This document shows positions 14,867 through 23,449 of a stretch of 34,740 nucleotides of DNA, piece after piece (the first letter of the stretch is position 1; the number at the start of each line of letters is the position of its first letter). A program made the position numbers and the translations under genes. Source of the stretch: Pseudomonadota bacterium (lineage in GTDB: Bacteria; Pseudomonadota; Alphaproteobacteria; Acetobacterales; Acetobacteraceae); contig JAJZBH010000003.1 in assembly GCA_021799015.1 (NCBI GenBank), positions 1-34,740 of the forward strand. Reading direction: 5' to 3'. The notes below the pieces were generated by a model that worked only from the letters and a program-made list of their open reading frames with translations, did not search any database and was not told the DNA's origin.

Positions 14867-15070
14867 CTATTTAAAGGCACAACCGGGTCTTATGCCGAGT
14901 CTTTTGAGGACCATGGCGGCTGGGCAGAAACCCGTAATTCCGGCCTGGGTCAAGTTTAGGCCAGCGAAGGCCGAGATAAGAAAGAAGTATGGGCTCACAA
15001 GCCACCCCAACAGCAAGCCCAGTAAAACGACGAGACCCGCAAAAGAGAGAACCGCGCTATCGATAGTCAT
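14867..15070 (-). CDS. DUF2892 (YgaP-like membrane domain) protein
   Basis: 67 aa MTIDSAVLSFAGLVVLLGLLLGWLVSPYFFLISAFAGLNLTQAGITGFCPAAMVLKRLGIRPGCAFK: two TM segments and the family-type GFCPAAMVLKRLG signature. Confidence 0.82.
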   Translation of the reverse strand: MTIDSAVLSFAGLVVLLGLLLGWLVSPYFFLISAFAGLNLTQAGITGFCPAAMVLKRLGIRPGCAFK

Positions 15071-15099
15071 TTCTGCCTCCTTTTAAATAAATGGTAAAA

Positions 15100-15579
15100 T
15101 CACGCTTCCGCTGCGCCTTGGGCGCGCGCCCAACTGACGATTCGGTCCGCGGGTGCTGCCCCAGCTTGCTGCGCGCGCAAAAAGCCATGATCGAACAGCA
15201 GCAGGGTTGGGATCGAGCGGATTCCGTACCGGCTTAAGATTTCGGGAGCGCCATCAGCATTAAGCTTGAGTAACCGAAATGCCGGCTCAAGGCGGCGCGC
15301 AGCCTCGATGAACGATGGCTCCATCGTTCGGCAGGGGGCGCACCACGGTGCCCAAACGTCGACCAGAACCGGTACTTGATCATGTTTGACATGACGATCG
15401 AAACCTGCGGCGTCGACGTCTACGGGGCGGCCGATATAGATCGCGGCATGGCAGGTTCCGCACCTTGGCGACGCGCCTATTCGCGCGGCGGGGATCCGGT
15501 TAATTGTGCCGCATGCAGGGCATATCAGTGTTAACGTCGCGTCACTCACAAAAAGCTCCGGTTTAGCCGGCCTTCTCAT
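15100..15579 (-). CDS. Thioredoxin 2-like (TrxC) protein with N-terminal zinc ribbon and WCAPC active site
   Basis: LICPACGTINRIP...CGTCHAAIYIGRPVDVDAAGFDRHV...VLVDVWAPWCAPCRTMEP...LLKLNADGAPEILSRYGIRSIPTLLLF. Start overlaps the SQR stop (ATGA). Confidence 0.9.
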   Translation of the reverse strand: MRRPAKPELFVSDATLTLICPACGTINRIPAARIGASPRCGTCHAAIYIGRPVDVDAAGFDRHVKHDQVPVLVDVWAPWCAPCRTMEPSFIEAARRLEPAFRLLKLNADGAPEILSRYGIRSIPTLLLFDHGFLRAQQAGAAPADRIVSWARAQGAAEA

Positions 15580-16859
15580 TGGATTTTCGGAGGGTGTGTC
15601 TTTGGAATATCGAGCTGTTTGAGAAGGTAACGTTCGAAAAATAGTTCGCTTGTTCCTGCCTTTATTTTGCGAAGGAAATATCGCTCAAAGGCAACTTTTG
15701 CGAGGTGCACCCATTTACCTTGTGCGGCCCAGTTGACATTGCGCGGCGGGATTTGAGGCTGGGCCACGAAAGCGACGCCGCTGTCGCCGAAGTCGGCGAG
15801 ACAGATGGCATTCCAAGTTGGTCTGACGTCGGGTTCGCGCCCGCGAAGGAGGAGACCGATATTCTTTGCAGTTGCCGCGACCATGGACTCGATCATGTAC
15901 CCTGTTTTTGGGACGCCGACCGGGACTGGAGTTTTGCCTACCGGAGGAATCGCAACACATACGCCAACCGAAAACACGTCACGGTAGGTCGGATTCCGCT
16001 GGTATGAGTCTGTAAGCATAAAGCCACGCGCGTTAACTAGGCTTTCGATGCCGAATATTGCAGGCACGCCGCGAAACGCGGGCATCATCATGCTGTAGGC
16101 AAAGGGTAGTTCATGGGTGCTTTTGACAGAGCTGTCCTCGTTGAGTTCCTCGATCGCCATTACATTGGGTTCGACACCCGTGACGCGTGCGTTAGTTATC
16201 CACTTTACGTGGCGGTTGCGGAATTCGCTTTCCAGGAGGCCTTTGGTATCTCCCACGCCGTCGAGTCCAAGATGGCCAATATAGGGCTCTGGCGTGACAA
16301 AAGTCATCGGAACCTGGTCACGAATCTTGCGCTTGCGCAGTTCGGTGTCGAGAATCAGCGCGAATTCATAGGCCGGACCAAAACAGGAAGCGCCCTGGGC
16401 GGCGCCAATGATCGCCGGGCCGGGATTTTGACAGAAGCGCTCGAACATTTCAAACGCTGTCTCTGCGTGGGCGGTTTCACAAATGGACTGAGTGTAGCCA
16501 TTCGGGCCGAGTCCGGGAACCTCATCAAACGCAAGTTCGGGGCCAGTAGCGACAACAAGGTAGTCATAACCGTGTTTCGTACCGTCGATAAGTTGGATCG
16601 ACTTTGTCTTAGGATCGACGCGAGCGGCAGGAACGGTAATGAAGTTGATATTTCTGCGTTGCATTGCCGGTTTAAGGTCGATTTCGATCTCCTTACGCCG
16701 ACGCCAACCTATCGCAACCCACGGGTTAGATGGATAGAATTGGTATGTCGCCCCCTTGCTGATGAGGCTAAGGTTGTCTTCAGTGCGGAGTTGGCCTGCC
16801 AACTCATAGGCCATAAGGGTCCCACCCAACCCGGCACCAAGAACGGTGATTTCTGCCAT
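15576..16859 (-). CDS. sqr: Sulfide:quinone oxidoreductase (type I-like)
   Basis: MAEITVLGAGLGGTLMAYELAGQL...FYPSNPWVAIGWRRRKEIEIDL...YTQSICETAHAETAFEMF...IIGAAQGASCFGPAYEFALIL...VTPEPYIGHLGLDGVGDTKGLLESE...IPPVGKTPVPVGVPKTGYMIESMV...TWNAICLADFGDSGVAF. The three Cys positions characteristic of SQR are present. ATG at 16859; the 17264 track start is too long. Confidence 0.95.
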   Translation of the reverse strand: MAEITVLGAGLGGTLMAYELAGQLRTEDNLSLISKGATYQFYPSNPWVAIGWRRRKEIEIDLKPAMQRRNINFITVPAARVDPKTKSIQLIDGTKHGYDYLVVATGPELAFDEVPGLGPNGYTQSICETAHAETAFEMFERFCQNPGPAIIGAAQGASCFGPAYEFALILDTELRKRKIRDQVPMTFVTPEPYIGHLGLDGVGDTKGLLESEFRNRHVKWITNARVTGVEPNVMAIEELNEDSSVKSTHELPFAYSMMMPAFRGVPAIFGIESLVNARGFMLTDSYQRNPTYRDVFSVGVCVAIPPVGKTPVPVGVPKTGYMIESMVAATAKNIGLLLRGREPDVRPTWNAICLADFGDSGVAFVAQPQIPPRNVNWAAQGKWVHLAKVAFERYFLRKIKAGTSELFFERYLLKQLDIPKTHPPKIQ

Positions 16860-16944
16860 GAGCTTCTCCTCCGTTCCAGCTGCGTCTATTGAGCCGCGTT
16901 CTTTGCAGCTGGTGTCGTCGCAGAATGCCCTCCATTTCCACGAA

Positions 16945-16973
16945 TTGACAATATATTCGATAATTTGTATATA
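16945..16973 (+). promoter_or_regulatory. Predicted sigma70 promoter of the ArsR-family repressor gene
   Basis: TTGACA (16945-16950) - 17 nt - TATATA (16968-16973). Start codon at 16981, 7 nt after the -10. Confidence 0.72.
16948..16968. promoter_or_regulatory. Candidate BigR/SqrR-type operator dyad
   Basis: ACAATATATTCGATAATTTGT: imperfect 21-bp dyad (ACAA..TAT.c.ATA..TTGT, 7 of 10 pairs complementary) inside the shared promoter spacer. Confidence 0.5.
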
Positions 16974-16978
16974 CGCAA
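16950..16978 (-). promoter_or_regulatory. Predicted sigma70 promoter of sqr-trxC-DUF2892, overlapping the opposing promoter
   Basis: Minus strand TTGCGT (16978-16973) - 17 nt - TATATT (16955-16950). Confidence 0.6.
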
Positions 16979-16980
16979 GT

Positions 16981-17337
16981 ATGAAATTCGACGCTGATGC
17001 AATGGCCCTGCAGGCATCCGCTGCAACGGATATGTTGAAGGCGCTCGCCAATCCGCATCGGCTGATGATCTTGTGCCAGTTATTTGGAGGTGAGCGGACG
17101 GTCAGTGATCTGGCCACGGGGCTTGGATTGCGGATTTCGACAATGTCCCAGCACCTCGGGCTGTTACGGCGAGACGGACTGGTCGCAACGAGGCGAGAGG
17201 CCCAAACGATCAAGTATCGTTTGGCAGATGATGTGGTCCGACGTTTGCTGGAGACCCTGTTCACAATTTATTGCCCTAACGCGATAAGCGAAAACCCGAC
17301 TGGCGCACATGCCGATGATCCTGAAAGGATTCCATAA
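16981..17337 (+). CDS. ArsR-family repressor of the BigR/SqrR/YgaV (persulfide-sensing) type
   Basis: MKFDADAMALQASAATDMLKALANPHRLMILCQLFGGERTVSDLATGLGLRISTMSQHLGLLRRDGLVATRREAQTIKYRLADDVVRRLLETLFTIYCPN: two Cys at ILCQL and IYCP, as in BigR/SqrR. Stop overlaps the next start (TAATG). Confidence 0.88.
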   Translation: MKFDADAMALQASAATDMLKALANPHRLMILCQLFGGERTVSDLATGLGLRISTMSQHLGLLRRDGLVATRREAQTIKYRLADDVVRRLLETLFTIYCPNAISENPTGAHADDPERIP

Positions 17338-17702
17338 TGACGACCGATAAGAGCGTGTTAAGGGAAATTACGCCGCGCGAATTGGCGGTCATGCTCAGTA
17401 ACAACGAGGTCGTACTCGTCGATGTCCGTGAGCCCGATGAGTTTGCGAGCGCACGCATCCACGGGGCTTTGCTGGCGCCGTTATCCTCGTTCGATCCCGC
17501 CTTCCTGCCACGGAATCCAGGGCAGCCCATCGTTCTGCAATGCGGCTCCGGAAAACGTTCAGCGATCGCGGCAGCCAAATGTATGAAAGCTGGCGTTCCG
17601 ATCGCGGGCCACCTATCCGGCGGCATTGTGGCATGGAGGCAGGCCGCGTTCCCGACGATTACGCTGGATCCTTCCAGCGGCAAGATCGTGGAACGGCGCT
17701 GA
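17337..17702 (+). CDS. Rhodanese-like sulfurtransferase
   Basis: ITPRELAVMLSNNEVVLVDVREPDEFASARIHGALLAPLSSFD...PIVLQCGSGKRSAIAAAKCMKAGVPIAGHLSGGIVAWRQA; CGSGKRS active-site loop. Confidence 0.93.
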   Translation: MTTDKSVLREITPRELAVMLSNNEVVLVDVREPDEFASARIHGALLAPLSSFDPAFLPRNPGQPIVLQCGSGKRSAIAAAKCMKAGVPIAGHLSGGIVAWRQAAFPTITLDPSSGKIVERR

Positions 17703-17721
17703 TGCGTTCCCGCATCGGTAA

Positions 17722-18780
17722 GTGAAAATGTTGCGGCCGTTTCCCGCGCCCGACACTGTGCAGCGCATGGCCCACGGGGCTTTTTGGACGCTTGTCACCG
17801 TGCTGGCATCGATCCATTGTGGCAGCGCTTTGGCGGCCTCGCGGAAATTCATTGTGCTGGAGCGACAGGTTACCGAACTAGCTCCTGTTTTTGGAACGGT
17901 AGAAGGGGTGCGCATCCTGCCAGCGCGTGCGCGGATCGCCGGCACTGTACAGAAACTTGACGTCAAGGAAGGTGACTTCGTAGGCTCAGGCGAAGAACTT
18001 GCCATTGTTGCCGACTCGACATTACTAAGCCGCCAAGCTGCGCTAACCGCGGCGATCAAGGGAGCGGAAGCGCAGCGGCTCGAAGCCCAGCAAAACTTCA
18101 CCCGCGTACGGCGTTTGATTGGCGTGGGGGCCGTTTCGCAATCTGCGTTCGACCAGGCACGGTCGGCGCTGCATGTCGCCGAAAGCACGCTGGCCAGCGA
18201 TATCGCGCAGCACGAGACCATTGCGCGGCAGATCGCGCAAGGCGCGGTGCTGGCGCCGCACGCCGGGCTTGTCATTCACACGCCTGTTTCGGCAGGCAGT
18301 GTGGTGATGCCGGGTGACATCGTCGCCGAGATCGCCGAGGCGCCCTTCCGGATTCGTCTTGCCGTCCCAGAACGTTATACGCGCTTTGTAAAAAGAGGTG
18401 CGTTGATCCGCGTCGACGGTTCGGAACTCGGCATCGATCACACCATGTTCGGCCGGATCGACGAAATCAAACCGGCGATCAGTGATGGACGAGTTATTGC
18501 CTATGCAAGCGTACCCGACCTGCCGGATCGCTTCGTCGGCATCAAGGTAGCGGTCTTGCTTCCTGCGCAGAAGCATCGTGCCATTGTCATACCAGCGTCA
18601 TATATCCTGACGTTGTCCGGCTCGGACTACGTGCTGATGCAGGAAAAAACCGGCGCGGTGATTGATGTGCCCGTTCAGCGGGGGGGCGCCCGGCCGAGCC
18701 CGCAAATGCCGAACGGCATCGAGATTCTCTCCGGATTGCGTCGAGGTGATGTCTTAGTCGAGCCCAAGGCTGAAGAATGA
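17722..18780 (+). CDS. RND efflux periplasmic adaptor subunit (membrane fusion protein)
   Basis: N-terminal signal/TM, ARIAGTVQKLDVKEGDFVGSGEELAIV lipoyl/barrel-sandwich motif, GAVLAPHAGLVIHTPVSAGSVVMPGDIVAEIAE. Confidence 0.88.
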   Translation: MKMLRPFPAPDTVQRMAHGAFWTLVTVLASIHCGSALAASRKFIVLERQVTELAPVFGTVEGVRILPARARIAGTVQKLDVKEGDFVGSGEELAIVADSTLLSRQAALTAAIKGAEAQRLEAQQNFTRVRRLIGVGAVSQSAFDQARSALHVAESTLASDIAQHETIARQIAQGAVLAPHAGLVIHTPVSAGSVVMPGDIVAEIAEAPFRIRLAVPERYTRFVKRGALIRVDGSELGIDHTMFGRIDEIKPAISDGRVIAYASVPDLPDRFVGIKVAVLLPAQKHRAIVIPASYILTLSGSDYVLMQEKTGAVIDVPVQRGGARPSPQMPNGIEILSGLRRGDVLVEPKAEE

Positions 18781-21700
18781 AGTTAGGTATTTCTGGGGCG
18801 ATCACGAGCGCATTTATCCGCTCAAAGCTGACGCCTTTGCTGATCATGGCGTCTTTGCTTGCCGGCTTCCTGGCCCTTGGTTCTATTCCGCGCGAGGACG
18901 ATCCCCAGATCAAGGCGCCGATCGTCGATGTTTCCGTTGTCGCGAACGGCTTGAAGGCCGCGGATGCGGTTGAGTTGGTTACTAAACCTCTGGAGACAAT
19001 TTTAAAATCGATTCCTGACGTCAAACACGTCTATAGCCAGACGCAGGATGATCAGGTGATGGTCAGTGCCGAATTTCATATCGGCACGCGTGAGCAGGAC
19101 GCCGTGCTACAGGTGTCCAATCATATCAACGCCAATATCGCAAGACTGCCGATTGGGATTCCACCACCGATCATTGTCGGACGTGGGATCAACGATGTTG
19201 CGATTGTGGTTGCAACGCTCACCCCAAAGCCTGGGGCAGCGCGGAAATACAATGAAGCCGATCTGTCACGCATTGCACGTAAGGTACAGACGGCGCTCAT
19301 CCGGATTCCGAATATTGGCCTATCCTATATCGTGGGAAATGTTCCGCAGGAAATCCGGGTTGAGCCGGAACCTGCCAAGCTATCTCTGTACGGCGTTACC
19401 TTTCAGCAACTGGTCGCGCGGATCACCGAGGCGAACAAGAGCTTCGATGCGGGAAATATATTTTCAAGTGGCAAGCTAGATGCCGTGGTCGTAGGCCACA
19501 GCCTTGAACCAGGCGCGAACATCGGCCTGCTGCAGCTAACGACACGTCACGGGCGGCCTGTGTACGTCGATGACGTGGCGAAGATCATTACCGGTCCGGC
19601 ACCCACGCAGCACAAGGTTTTCATGGTGGAGCGCTCTACCCGCGGATGGCGGACAGCGCCTGCGGTCACCATCGCCTTCGCCAAACGGCCAGGGTCGAAC
19701 GCGGTCGTCATCGCGCGGACGATTCGTAAAAGGTTGGATGCTCTCCAAGGGAGACTGATACCTGATGACGTTTCCGTTCACATAACCCGTGACGAAGGGC
19801 GAAGCGCAAATGCAAAGGTCAACGAGCTCTTGTTGCATCTTGCGTTGGCCACATTTTCGATCGTTGTTTTAATTGCCTTTGCAATCGGATGGAGAGCAGC
19901 GGCAGTTACCGCTATTGTTATCCCGACCACCGTGTTACTCACGATTTTTGCATCCTGGGTACTAGGATTCTCGATTAATCGTGTAAGTCTTTTTGCCCTG
20001 ATTTTCTCCATCGGCATCCTCGTGGACGATGCGATCGTGGTTGTCGAGAACATCTCGCGTCATTGGGAGATGCACGATGGCCGGGCGCGACTTCAGTCGG
20101 CAGTTGAGGCCGTGGCGGAGGTCGGCAATCCCACCATCATCGCGACGCTGGCCGTGATTGTGGCATTGCTGCCCATGTTGTTCGTCAGCGGCCTGATGGG
20201 ACCGTATATGGCGCCGATACCGATTAATGCGTCTGCGGCAATGGCTTTTTCGTTCTTCGTGGCAACAATTGCTGCGCCCTGGATGATGCTTAAGCTTGCG
20301 CCGGGCCAGAAGGCATTGGGGCCGCATCATGCAGTACGTAACCAGTTGGGAGAGCTTTATTGGCGCATAGCTGAGCCGGTGATCCGCACGCGCCGCCGCG
20401 CGCTGTTTTTCCTTCTCGGTGTCGGCGTTGCGACGCTTGCGGCGCTGTCGCTATTCTATTTTGAGGTTGTTACGGTGAAGTTGCTGCCGTTCGGTAACAA
20501 GCCGCATCTGACTGTGGTGCTTGACCTGCCAGCAGGCGCTTCGTTGGAAGCGACCGAGAGAAACTTGTTCGCACTGGCCCGAAGAGCGGAAAGCGTGCGG
20601 GATGTAAAATCGGTGACGGTTTATGCGGGTACGGCAGGCCCTTTCGATTTCAACGGACTCGTTAGGCATTATTATGCGAGGCAGTCGCCGAACCAGGGGG
20701 AATTGCAGATTCTGTTGAACCCTGACGATCAGCGGCATGAACTAACAAATACGGTTGCGAAGCATCTGCGCGCGGCGATCAGTGCCGTGGCACTGCCGCC
20801 GGGATCCACTCTTCAGATTGTCCAAGAGCCACCGGGACCGCCAGTACTGGCACCGCTCGTTGCCGAGATCTATGCGCCGAACGCGAAACTGCGGCTTGCC
20901 GAGGCGCGGGAAATTGAAAAACTATTTCGCAAGGTGGGTTTCATTGCAGACGTCCATAACTCCTGGGGCTACCGGCGACCGCAGCTGGAGATTGATGTCA
21001 ATCAGAGTGCGTTGAATTTCTACCACGTCCAACAGTCCGACGTGAACCAGACGATCCGTGATCTCGTGGGTGGGGTAGCGGTGGGGTATGCATATCGTGG
21101 GGCAGAGCATCTGCCTATCGACATAGCCGTGGGATTGCCGAACCGCGCGCGAGAGTGGAACGACGACTTGGCGGCAACCCCAATTCCGGCAGCTTCCGTG
21201 CCTGGCGCCAAATCCGTCGTCGAATTGGGTCAAGTCGTCACCGTTCGGCAAACCTTCGGATCCTATTCATTGTATCGCCGTGACGGCCAGGATACTGACA
21301 TGGTTGAGGCCGATCTTGCGGGAAAATTCCAAGCTCCAATCTATGCAATTCTCGCGGTTGATCACCTGATTGCCGAGCATCGCTGGACGAAGGCGCTGCC
21401 AATGCCAAGAATCAGCCTTACGGATCCCCCGTTAACAGAAGCAACGCCGACCGTGCGCTGGGCCGGGGAATGGCGCGTGACGTATGTAACGTTCCGTGAC
21501 ATGGGGGCAGCATTCATCGTGGCACTGCTCGGAATTTATGTTCTCGTCGTCGGCCAGTTCCGCAGCTTCAAGATCCCGCTTGTTATCCTGACTCCCGTGC
21601 CACTGACCTTGATCGGGATCATGCTCGGACATTGGCTGCTCGGGGCGTATTTCACGGCAACGTCAATGATCGGATTTATCGCCCTGGCGGGGATCATCGT

Positions 21701-21977
21701 GCGTAACTCCATCCTCCTAGTAGATTTCATTCGCCACAGGCAGAATGATACAACGCCCCTGCGACGGGTACTGCTGGAAGCCGGAGCGATCCGCATTAAG
21801 CCGATCCTGCTTACGGCCATCGCCGCCATGATCGGGGCCGCGGCAATCCTGCCTGATCCAATTTTTCAGGGACTCGGGGTCTCTCTTCTGTTCGGTCTTG
21901 CGTCGTCAACGGTGCTAACGTTGCTCGTCATCCCGGCCATATACATTGTGCTTCGGGATGATCGTCGGCCGCTCTGA
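18777..21977 (+). CDS. RND efflux transporter permease subunit
   Basis: 1066 aa; SIPREDDPQIKAPIVDVSVVANG, TM4 FSIGILVDDAIVVVENISRHWEM, TM10 GIIVRNSILLVDFIRHR. ATGA overlap with the adaptor. Confidence 0.95.
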   Translation: MKLGISGAITSAFIRSKLTPLLIMASLLAGFLALGSIPREDDPQIKAPIVDVSVVANGLKAADAVELVTKPLETILKSIPDVKHVYSQTQDDQVMVSAEFHIGTREQDAVLQVSNHINANIARLPIGIPPPIIVGRGINDVAIVVATLTPKPGAARKYNEADLSRIARKVQTALIRIPNIGLSYIVGNVPQEIRVEPEPAKLSLYGVTFQQLVARITEANKSFDAGNIFSSGKLDAVVVGHSLEPGANIGLLQLTTRHGRPVYVDDVAKIITGPAPTQHKVFMVERSTRGWRTAPAVTIAFAKRPGSNAVVIARTIRKRLDALQGRLIPDDVSVHITRDEGRSANAKVNELLLHLALATFSIVVLIAFAIGWRAAAVTAIVIPTTVLLTIFASWVLGFSINRVSLFALIFSIGILVDDAIVVVENISRHWEMHDGRARLQSAVEAVAEVGNPTIIATLAVIVALLPMLFVSGLMGPYMAPIPINASAAMAFSFFVATIAAPWMMLKLAPGQKALGPHHAVRNQLGELYWRIAEPVIRTRRRALFFLLGVGVATLAALSLFYFEVVTVKLLPFGNKPHLTVVLDLPAGASLEATERNLFALARRAESVRDVKSVTVYAGTAGPFDFNGLVRHYYARQSPNQGELQILLNPDDQRHELTNTVAKHLRAAISAVALPPGSTLQIVQEPPGPPVLAPLVAEIYAPNAKLRLAEAREIEKLFRKVGFIADVHNSWGYRRPQLEIDVNQSALNFYHVQQSDVNQTIRDLVGGVAVGYAYRGAEHLPIDIAVGLPNRAREWNDDLAATPIPAASVPGAKSVVELGQVVTVRQTFGSYSLYRRDGQDTDMVEADLAGKFQAPIYAILAVDHLIAEHRWTKALPMPRISLTDPPLTEATPTVRWAGEWRVTYVTFRDMGAAFIVALLGIYVLVVGQFRSFKIPLVILTPVPLTLIGIMLGHWLLGAYFTATSMIGFIALAGIIVRNSILLVDFIRHRQNDTTPLRRVLLEAGAIRIKPILLTAIAAMIGAAAILPDPIFQGLGVSLLFGLASSTVLTLLVIPAIYIVLRDDRRPL

Positions 21978-22014: not shown

Positions 22015-22485
22015 TCACAATGTGAACGTGTATTCAGTCTTGATCTCGGAGGCGTTGGGGAGGCCGAGGAGAGTTCGATCAGCCAAGACCCCCTCAGGGA
22101 CCACGAGGCGGACTGCTTGGCAGGCGGCCACTCGCGCGATGCAAACCAGGCCGGCCGCCAAGCTCGCTAGGAATGGGCCGGGATCAAGGATGTCGACCGC
22201 GGTGAACGGATGCGCGGTGAGCAATCGCTTCGCCTCGAAGTCGGGGCCGCAATGGTAGCAGGCCAACCCACTGGGGAAGGTTGCGGTCTTCCGGCGGACG
22301 GTGATGATGCCACGCCGCTCCGGCTTGGCGGCCAAGGTGCGGCGACAGTACTCCTCCCAGCGGCGCTGGTTTGCATGCCGCTGGGTCAGCCTGAGAATCG
22401 CGAAAGTCGGACCAATCTGTTCGTTAGTTAACGCTTCGACCACAAGCCCGGCTTCAGAAGCGACTCTGGATTGATTGATTTTCAT
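22015..22485 (-). CDS. Uncharacterised protein, divergent from the FNR-type regulator
   Basis: 156-aa ORF MKINQSRVASEAGLVVEALTNEQIGPTFAILRL...SGLACYHCGPDFEAKRLLTAHPFTAVDILDPGPFLASLAAGLV... with protein-like composition; no family recognised. Confidence 0.65.
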   Translation of the reverse strand: MKINQSRVASEAGLVVEALTNEQIGPTFAILRLTQRHANQRRWEEYCRRTLAAKPERRGIITVRRKTATFPSGLACYHCGPDFEAKRLLTAHPFTAVDILDPGPFLASLAAGLVCIARVAACQAVRLVVPEGVLADRTLLGLPNASEIKTEYTFTL

Positions 22486-22627: not shown

Positions 22628-23449
22628 GTGTCTGTTCTAGTGGAGTCTGCTTGGGGAAGGGATCTACAGATGCTGGACCACCGTTATCGGAGTCAACGTG
22701 CGCCAATCAATCTCTCAGAAGCAATAATTCCTGGTCTTTGTGCGGGGTGTGGAGCCCGCCATATTGGCCTTTGCGACGCCCTCTCGGATGAGGATCTGCA
22801 CTTTCTGGCGAGCGTATCCAGACCGCTGACCGTTCAGAAGGGGCAGACCTTTGTTGTTGAAGGTGATGCCGCCCGGTCTTTTTTTAACATCAATTACGGT
22901 GTTGCCAAACTATACAAAGACATGCCGGATGGCCGTAGACAGATCACCGGTTTTGTCAGCGCGGGGGATTTTGTCGGGTTGGCCGCCGACAGTTGCTACG
23001 CGTTCAGCGCCGAAGCAATCCAGGAAGTTCGGATGTGCCGCTTCGATAGGACAGAACTGCGGAATGTGTTTGGTCGGTTTCCGGCGATCGAGCAGCGCTT
23101 GTTCGATTTCGCCTCACATGAACTGGTCGTGGCGCAAGAGCAGATGTTGCTGCTCGGAAGAAAAACCGCGGTCGAGCGCCTCGCGTCTTTTCTTGACGGC
23201 TGGCATCATCGCCTCAGCCACACCGAAGATTCAAATTCGGGACGGGCGCTGCCGATGACCCGTGCGGATCTTGCGGACTACTTAGGCTTGACGATTGAGA
23301 CGGTGTCGCGGGCGTTGTCGTCCCTGCGCAAACTCGGCGTCATATCGGTTGCAGCCGACCACGGTGTGTCCGTGCTGCAGTCGACCCGATTGGCCGAGAT
23401 TGCGCAGGCCGCCGGTTCGAGTTCCGCAAAAATTCAGCCTATGGCCTGA
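22628..23449 (+). CDS. Crp/Fnr-family regulator with FNR-type Fe-S cysteines
   Basis: GLCAGCGARHIGLC (C-X2-C-X7-C) plus a later Cys (ADSCYAFSAEA), cNMP-like domain, HTH MTRADLADYLGLTIETVSRALSSLRKLGVI. Track start is GTG 22628; ATG at 22670 (MLDHRYRSQRAP) is plausible. Confidence 0.9.
   Translation: MSVLVESAWGRDLQMLDHRYRSQRAPINLSEAIIPGLCAGCGARHIGLCDALSDEDLHFLASVSRPLTVQKGQTFVVEGDAARSFFNINYGVAKLYKDMPDGRRQITGFVSAGDFVGLAADSCYAFSAEAIQEVRMCRFDRTELRNVFGRFPAIEQRLFDFASHELVVAQEQMLLLGRKTAVERLASFLDGWHHRLSHTEDSNSGRALPMTRADLADYLGLTIETVSRALSSLRKLGVISVAADHGVSVLQSTRLAEIAQAAGSSSAKIQPMA

Follow-up and report, generated by a model that had tools for sequence, protein, structure and literature searches.

The locus studied here lies at positions 14867 to 21977 of the window, a 34,740-nucleotide stretch of DNA (contig JAJZBH010000003.1) from the 2.43 Mb draft genome of an Acidiphilium-like, acid-loving bacterium. 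It consists of two facing arms: genes for a DUF2892 membrane peptide, a TrxC-like thioredoxin and a sulfide:quinone oxidoreductase (SQR) on one side, and for an ArsR-family repressor, a rhodanese and the adaptor and permease of an RND pump on the other. An original prediction, made from the sequence of this DNA, took them as a single reactive-sulfur unit. We conclude that the unit is real, conserved, distributed more widely than that prediction supposed, and partly described before. Our reading is that of a self-contained sulfide and sulfane-sulfur response unit with a sulfur-exporting pump, to which we assign a probability of about 0.55. With the export step set aside, a persulfide-controlled sulfide-defence unit is highly probable. 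The removal of a hydrophobic sulfane-sulfur product by the pump, as proposed from sequence, is the least certain step, and we would place it somewhat short of even odds.

How bacteria clear the sulfur made by SQR from their membranes is poorly known. Sulfur efflux can be tested directly, since one RND subfamily is recurrently tied to a Cys-pair repressor, SQR and DUF2892; the tie also hints at what DUF2892, a frequent small membrane domain without known role, might do. The unit suggests that many bacteria export toxic forms of sulfur besides oxidising them. New here are a defined core, the membership of DUF2892, a distinct pump subfamily and a candidate operator.

A conserved gene block around the pump

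To avoid circularity, loci were gathered by the pump alone, and their neighbours were then scored; the sample comprised 80 named loci, and the pump was retrieved in 28 of 120 genomes of the family. When families of open reading frames (ORFs) were built de novo around 94 pumps, the most frequent neighbours were the adaptor (90), ArsR (60), DUF2892 (56) and SQR (55), then rhodanese (21) and thioredoxin (18), the next family being present 8 times. Profile searches in 95 pump loci detected ArsR in 75, DUF2892 in 73, SQR in 59, rhodanese in 33 and thioredoxin in 23. When redundancy was removed and complete flanks were required, 56 loci were left, with corresponding counts of 47, 47, 40, 19 and 13; just 3 of them lacked ArsR, DUF2892, SQR and rhodanese altogether. 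The constant core is therefore made of ArsR, DUF2892, the adaptor and the pump, usually with SQR, while rhodanese and thioredoxin are optional.

Could the two arms be unrelated operons, neighbours by chance? They are transcribed separately, and each occurs in reduced form. However, the same genes are found together in many lineages, elsewhere as one operon and in a different order, and pump and SQR co-occur in genomes of the class (385 genomes, odds ratio 54, p = 7e-11) as in those of the family (120 genomes, p = 2e-8), both values being uncorrected for relatedness. Chance neighbourhood is refuted by these conservation data. A lack of conservation in relatives had been named beforehand as the finding that would speak against a single unit; the opposite was found. 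The Acetobacteraceae-type order, DUF2892-(Trx)-(SQR) opposite ArsR-(rhodanese)-adaptor-pump, is repeated across this family, with near-identical loci in Acidiphilium-type metagenome-assembled genomes (L060, L063), and the genes are reordered across Alphaproteobacteria, as in the 16 rhizobia-like loci where ArsR stands opposite SQR-DUF2892-adaptor-pump.

Some loci have further features. On plasmid pIBU218 of Rhizorhabdus wittichii, typed as conjugative, TolC-DUF2892-SQR is opposite rhodanese-adaptor-pump-ArsR, and the unit is flanked by katG/catalase and cytochrome bd genes (L182). A carboxymuconolactone-decarboxylase/AhpD-like gene adjoins the pump or DUF2892 in 12 of the 95 loci (e.g. L067, L070 and L071), and is possibly an extra thiol-redox part.

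All seven ORFs of the original prediction were found, and curated models and solved relatives agree with its gene assignments: Pfam gathering cut-offs were exceeded for YgaP-like_TM (PF11127), Thioredoxin, Zn_ribbon_Thio2, Pyr_redox_2, HTH_5, Rhodanese, HlyD_D23 and ACR_tran. SQR (15576-16859, minus strand, 427 amino acids) is preceded by a probable ribosome-binding site read from the sequence, GGAGGAG (16866-16872, minus strand). Its best PDB relatives are sulfide-quinone reductases (3sz0 and kin, which we take to be the A. ferrooxidans enzymes), with 467 bits over ~420 amino acids. The characteristic cysteines in QSIC, GASCFG and NAIC, already pointed out in the prediction, are present and retained in 54, 55 and 53 of 55 ungapped relatives. 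This homology and the three cysteines place the protein in the SQR family, its enzyme activity being predicted. The thioredoxin (15100-15579, minus strand) has an N-terminal zinc ribbon and a WCAPC active site, and its six cysteines, those of zinc ribbon and active site among them, are all conserved in relatives. It scores slightly under the cut-off of the NCBIfam TrxC model NF008229 (117.7 bits for 125), with zinc ribbon and fold present. In the single-domain rhodanese (17337-17702, plus strand, PF00581 59 bits), which has a CGSGKRS loop, the catalytic cysteine is kept in 33 of 33 relatives. The DUF2892 peptide (14867-15070, minus strand, 67 amino acids) reaches 38.5 bits with PF11127, for a cut-off of 25.3. 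Helices are predicted at residues 3-24 and 27-46, with a short third one at 50-57 (mean pLDDT, predicted local distance difference test, 85), and directly before the third is Cys49, in a TGFCPAA motif, invariant in 73 of 73 relatives. Such predicted helices and the invariant cysteine would suit, without proving it, a membrane-bound sulfur carrier.

The original prediction had seen in rhodanese and DUF2892 the two halves of a split YgaP. If this were the organising idea, the two would form a two-piece membrane sulfurtransferase, and the pump would be secondary. Both do resemble E. coli YgaP (30% identity for rhodanese, 46% for DUF2892), the repressor is 43% identical to YgaV, and the E. coli genes ygaV and ygaP are neighbours. 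This homology stands. However, rhodanese and PF11127 domains, which make up a single polypeptide in YgaP, are encoded by separate ORFs in this locus and in every one of the 95; of 47 complete loci with DUF2892, 32 lack rhodanese, and the reverse case occurs 4 times; and other rhodaneses of the PDB match this one better than YgaP does. We rejected the split as main reading because of the absence of any fused ORF and the frequency of DUF2892 without rhodanese. It is very unlikely as an explanation of the locus, and keeps the value of a weak analogy rather than of an organising principle.

A distinct subfamily of RND pumps

The pump comprises a periplasmic adaptor (17722-18780, plus strand; TIGR01730, 117.8 bits for a cut-off of 94.9) and a permease (18777-21977, plus strand; ACR_tran, PF00873, 460 bits). 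The permease is remote from any solved structure, the nearest giving 211 bits. Pumps of its alphaproteobacterial group score ~1100-1400, and those of a second group, outside the class, ~700-790. In a tree built by a quick method, with several long reference branches, both groups fall together with a third one of seven pumps in a single clade, which a long branch sets apart from AcrB, MdtB/C, CusA and the other pumps of the same genome. From sequence comparison, we assign the pump to a distinct RND subfamily, structurally unsolved. This assignment, like the promoter and operator dyad at 16945-16973 described below, goes beyond the original prediction.

Among 13 second-group pumps fetched, 10 are adjoined by DUF2892, ArsR, rhodanese or SQR. 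One such pump is encoded on a plasmid of the cyanobacterium Pseudanabaena sp. ABRG5-3 (L202), in a single run with DUF2892, an FAD/NAD(P)-binding oxidoreductase, ArsR, rhodanese and adaptor; the Cys arrangement of this ArsR is less similar, and it was not counted as a clear Cys-pair sensor.

What the pump carries was considered from its residues and from its scores against curated models. It satisfies both the PF00873 cut-off and the presence of the proton-relay residues of RND transporters, with DD, R, R and T at AcrB positions 407, 408, 940, 971 and 978: the Asp pair of HAE type, Arg971 and Thr978 are retained, and Arg replaces Lys940. These residues are of the drug-pump type, and E. coli YgaV is described in one report as controlling antibiotic tolerance (PMC9774250). 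Both points would fit a general xenobiotic exporter that carries no sulfur and is induced by persulfide as sulfide stress accompanies other toxic conditions. However, the phenylalanine cluster of AcrB is mostly lost, and the subfamily is distant from known drug pumps, with 387, 316 and 248 bits against the HAE1 models NF033617, NF000282 and TIGR00915 (cut-offs 1250, 1250 and 940). Furthermore, a general drug pump would not be expected to keep such constant company with DUF2892, SQR and rhodanese. We regard xenobiotic export as unlikely.

Export of metals, or of metal-sulfide complexes arising under sulfide exposure, was suggested by the authors of a study on Azospira for their RND genes (PMC5358917). 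Here, the CusA/CzcA model TIGR00914 gives 252 bits for a cut-off of 701, and the CusA pattern is absent, since Asp and Arg occupy the positions of AcrB Asp408 and Lys940, where CusA has Ala and Glu. The regulator carries a persulfide-type Cys pair and is close to SqrR, HlyU and BigR, not to metal sensors. Metals are thus a most improbable cargo.

The depletion of cysteines was tried as a mark of sulfur pumps and dropped as not distinctive: 55 of the 95 pumps have none, and in the genome studied here the remaining RND pumps have 0 to 2. The outer-membrane factors of the host genome are encoded away from the locus. In the literature searched, no RND pump of the subfamily with an established substrate was found. 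A bolder proposal would be that this subfamily, which is spread among Proteobacteria and occurs on one cyanobacterial plasmid at least, serves specifically to export zero-valent sulfur, be it S8, polysulfide or organic polysulfane; the DUF2892 hairpin would then act as membrane sulfur carrier and the persulfide-sensing repressor as switch. We hold it as tentative, and rather doubtful at present.

Probable sensor, candidate operator and proposed mechanism

The repressor gene (16981-17337, plus strand, its start possibly being the ATG at 17002) encodes an ArsR protein of the SqrR/BigR/YgaV type. Its best PDB relatives are the ArsR set 6o8k-6o8o, presumably SqrR structures, followed by HlyU, BigR and YgaV. 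The Cys pair announced by the original prediction is formed by Cys32 and Cys98, at the alpha2 and alpha5 positions; it is found in 75 of 75 relatives, and its separation of 66 is the same as that of Cys50 and Cys116 in sHdrR. With 84.6 bits, the protein is below the cut-off of 155 of the NCBIfam BigR equivalog NF040642, so that it is classed by its score as BigR-like, not as BigR itself. It is probably a sulfur-sensing repressor.

Gene ends overlap or abut at SQR/Trx, ArsR/rhodanese and adaptor/pump, which suggests two back-to-back transcription units. Between the arms, a candidate arsR promoter can be read on the plus strand (16945-16973), with TTGACA (16945-16950), a 17-nucleotide spacer and TATATA (16968-16973). 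A promoter consensus scanner was silent on it because it demands a T at the end of the second hexamer. Use of this promoter would leave arsR almost without a leader, unless its start is at 17002. Inside it lies a candidate operator, the dyad TATATTCG-N7-GTATATA (16952-16973), proposed from its conservation and its uniqueness. An exact match to the dyad is found nowhere else in the genome, so control looks local. In 41 Acetobacteraceae-type upstream regions, many of them from mutual relatives and hence not independent, TTGACNATATAT was found in 17 (0.2 in shuffles), and ATATATTCG, with at most one mismatch, in 22 (1.0 in shuffles). Where ArsR is divergent, mostly in rhizobia-like loci, another dyad, TTGATC-N3-CTCAATT, is present in 10 of 28 cases and never in shuffles; it is likely a second operator type. 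The SqrR motif ATTC-N8-GAAT is present in just 1 of 75 upstream regions, and the looser ATTC-N8-G(A/T)AT in 6 of 75, for 0.3 in shuffles. A TCGA dyad from the first motif search was dropped, as it was judged to lie inside the sqr coding sequence. A search restricted to the gaps, where operator types are mixed, gave no clear motif.

We propose the following mechanism. In resting cells, an ArsR dimer would sit on the dyad and repress arsR, rhodanese, adaptor and pump, and probably also the divergent sqr-trx-DUF2892 arm from the same site. A build-up of persulfide would create a sulfur bridge between Cys32 and Cys98, as has been shown for SqrR, BigR and HlyU, and release the repressor from DNA. 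SQR, whose family oxidises sulfide to polysulfide or sulfur with electrons going to quinone, would transfer electrons from sulfide to quinone and yield polysulfide or sulfur. Rhodanese, the zinc-ribbon thioredoxin and the DUF2892 hairpin, with its invariant cysteine, may handle sulfane sulfur at the membrane. Finally, the proton-driven pump, together with an outer-membrane channel encoded elsewhere, would take the product, possibly S8, a long polysulfide or an organic polysulfane, out of the inner membrane or periplasm.

This scheme is supported by the high frequency of ArsR, DUF2892 and SQR near the pump in complete loci, by the invariant cysteines of sensor, carrier and sulfurtransferase, and by the conserved, genome-unique dyad in the arsR promoter. 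It is further favoured by a pump with HAE proton-relay residues and no metal-pump pattern, and by plasmid 1 of Paracoccus denitrificans PD1222 (L180), where the operon of the pump is joined into one with another sulfur operon comprising an MBL-fold hydrolase, DUF2892, a YeeE/YedE transporter, a sulfur transferase, a Cys-pair ArsR and cytochromes. Published data point in the same direction. In Azospira suillum PS, an operon of SQR, RND pump and RND adaptor (Dsui_3440-3443) is induced by H2S and flagged by barcoded transposon fitness data, and the DUF2892 gene Dsui_0042 is induced ~10-fold (Mehta-Kolte et al. 2017, PMC5358917). HlyU, treated with persulfides, forms a tetrasulfide and loses DNA binding, a persulfide-specific sensing (PMC10509353). 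These data make the induction model likely.

Several observations weigh against this reading. SQR is not near the pump in 16 of the 56 complete loci, so the pump has no obligatory link to SQR itself. No sulfur-carrying relative is known. In the sister group of seven pumps (L140, L150, L151, L156-L159), ~40% identical to the pump and with 3-6 cysteines each, none has sulfur-type neighbours, meaning that part of the family does something else. Deletion of the whole Azospira operon left the H2S oxidation rate unchanged (PMC5358917), and the Azospira pump is likened to ours from its published description. Sulfur efflux could nevertheless explain why that operon is induced and flagged for fitness, yet dispensable for sulfide oxidation.

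Two further ORFs lie downstream of the pump. An FNR-like regulator (22628-23449, plus strand), which carries a Cys cluster near its N-terminus (CAGCGARHIGLC), is present in the near-identical Acidiphilium-type loci and absent from most relatives, and by this distribution is probably outside the sulfur unit. A possibly coding ORF of 156 amino acids (22015-22485, minus strand), with no Pfam match, is common to three Acidiphilium-type loci only.

Comparison with known systems

The combination had been presented as one not known as a described unit; parts of it are in fact published. According to Li et al. (2025, PMC12423496), sqr, rhd and RND pumps are among the genes in the vicinity of two-Cys ArsR regulators; their main text gives this as a survey statement, with no core defined, DUF2892 not brought in and the pump unexamined. 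Our literature search gave nothing joining SqrR with RND efflux, nor DUF2892 with sulfide and ArsR. Like the present locus, the operon of the betaproteobacterium Azospira suillum, the other published part, brings SQR, RND pump and adaptor together. It differs in that DUF2892 is elsewhere in the genome, and that regulator, rhodanese and thioredoxin are not reported in the operon.

BigR/SqrR systems share with the locus a persulfide-sensing Cys-pair repressor placed over sulfide-oxidation genes; their classical descriptions are built around a dioxygenase, SQR or YeeE-type transporters rather than an RND pump. In Paracoccus, a sulfur operon of this kind is joined to the pump unit. Finally, ygaV-ygaP of E. 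coli has in common with the locus a Cys-pair ArsR, a rhodanese and a YgaP-type membrane domain, but the latter two are fused, and the annotated neighbourhood is without SQR and without RND pump. We prefer to see in it a smaller relative, a variation on the same theme.

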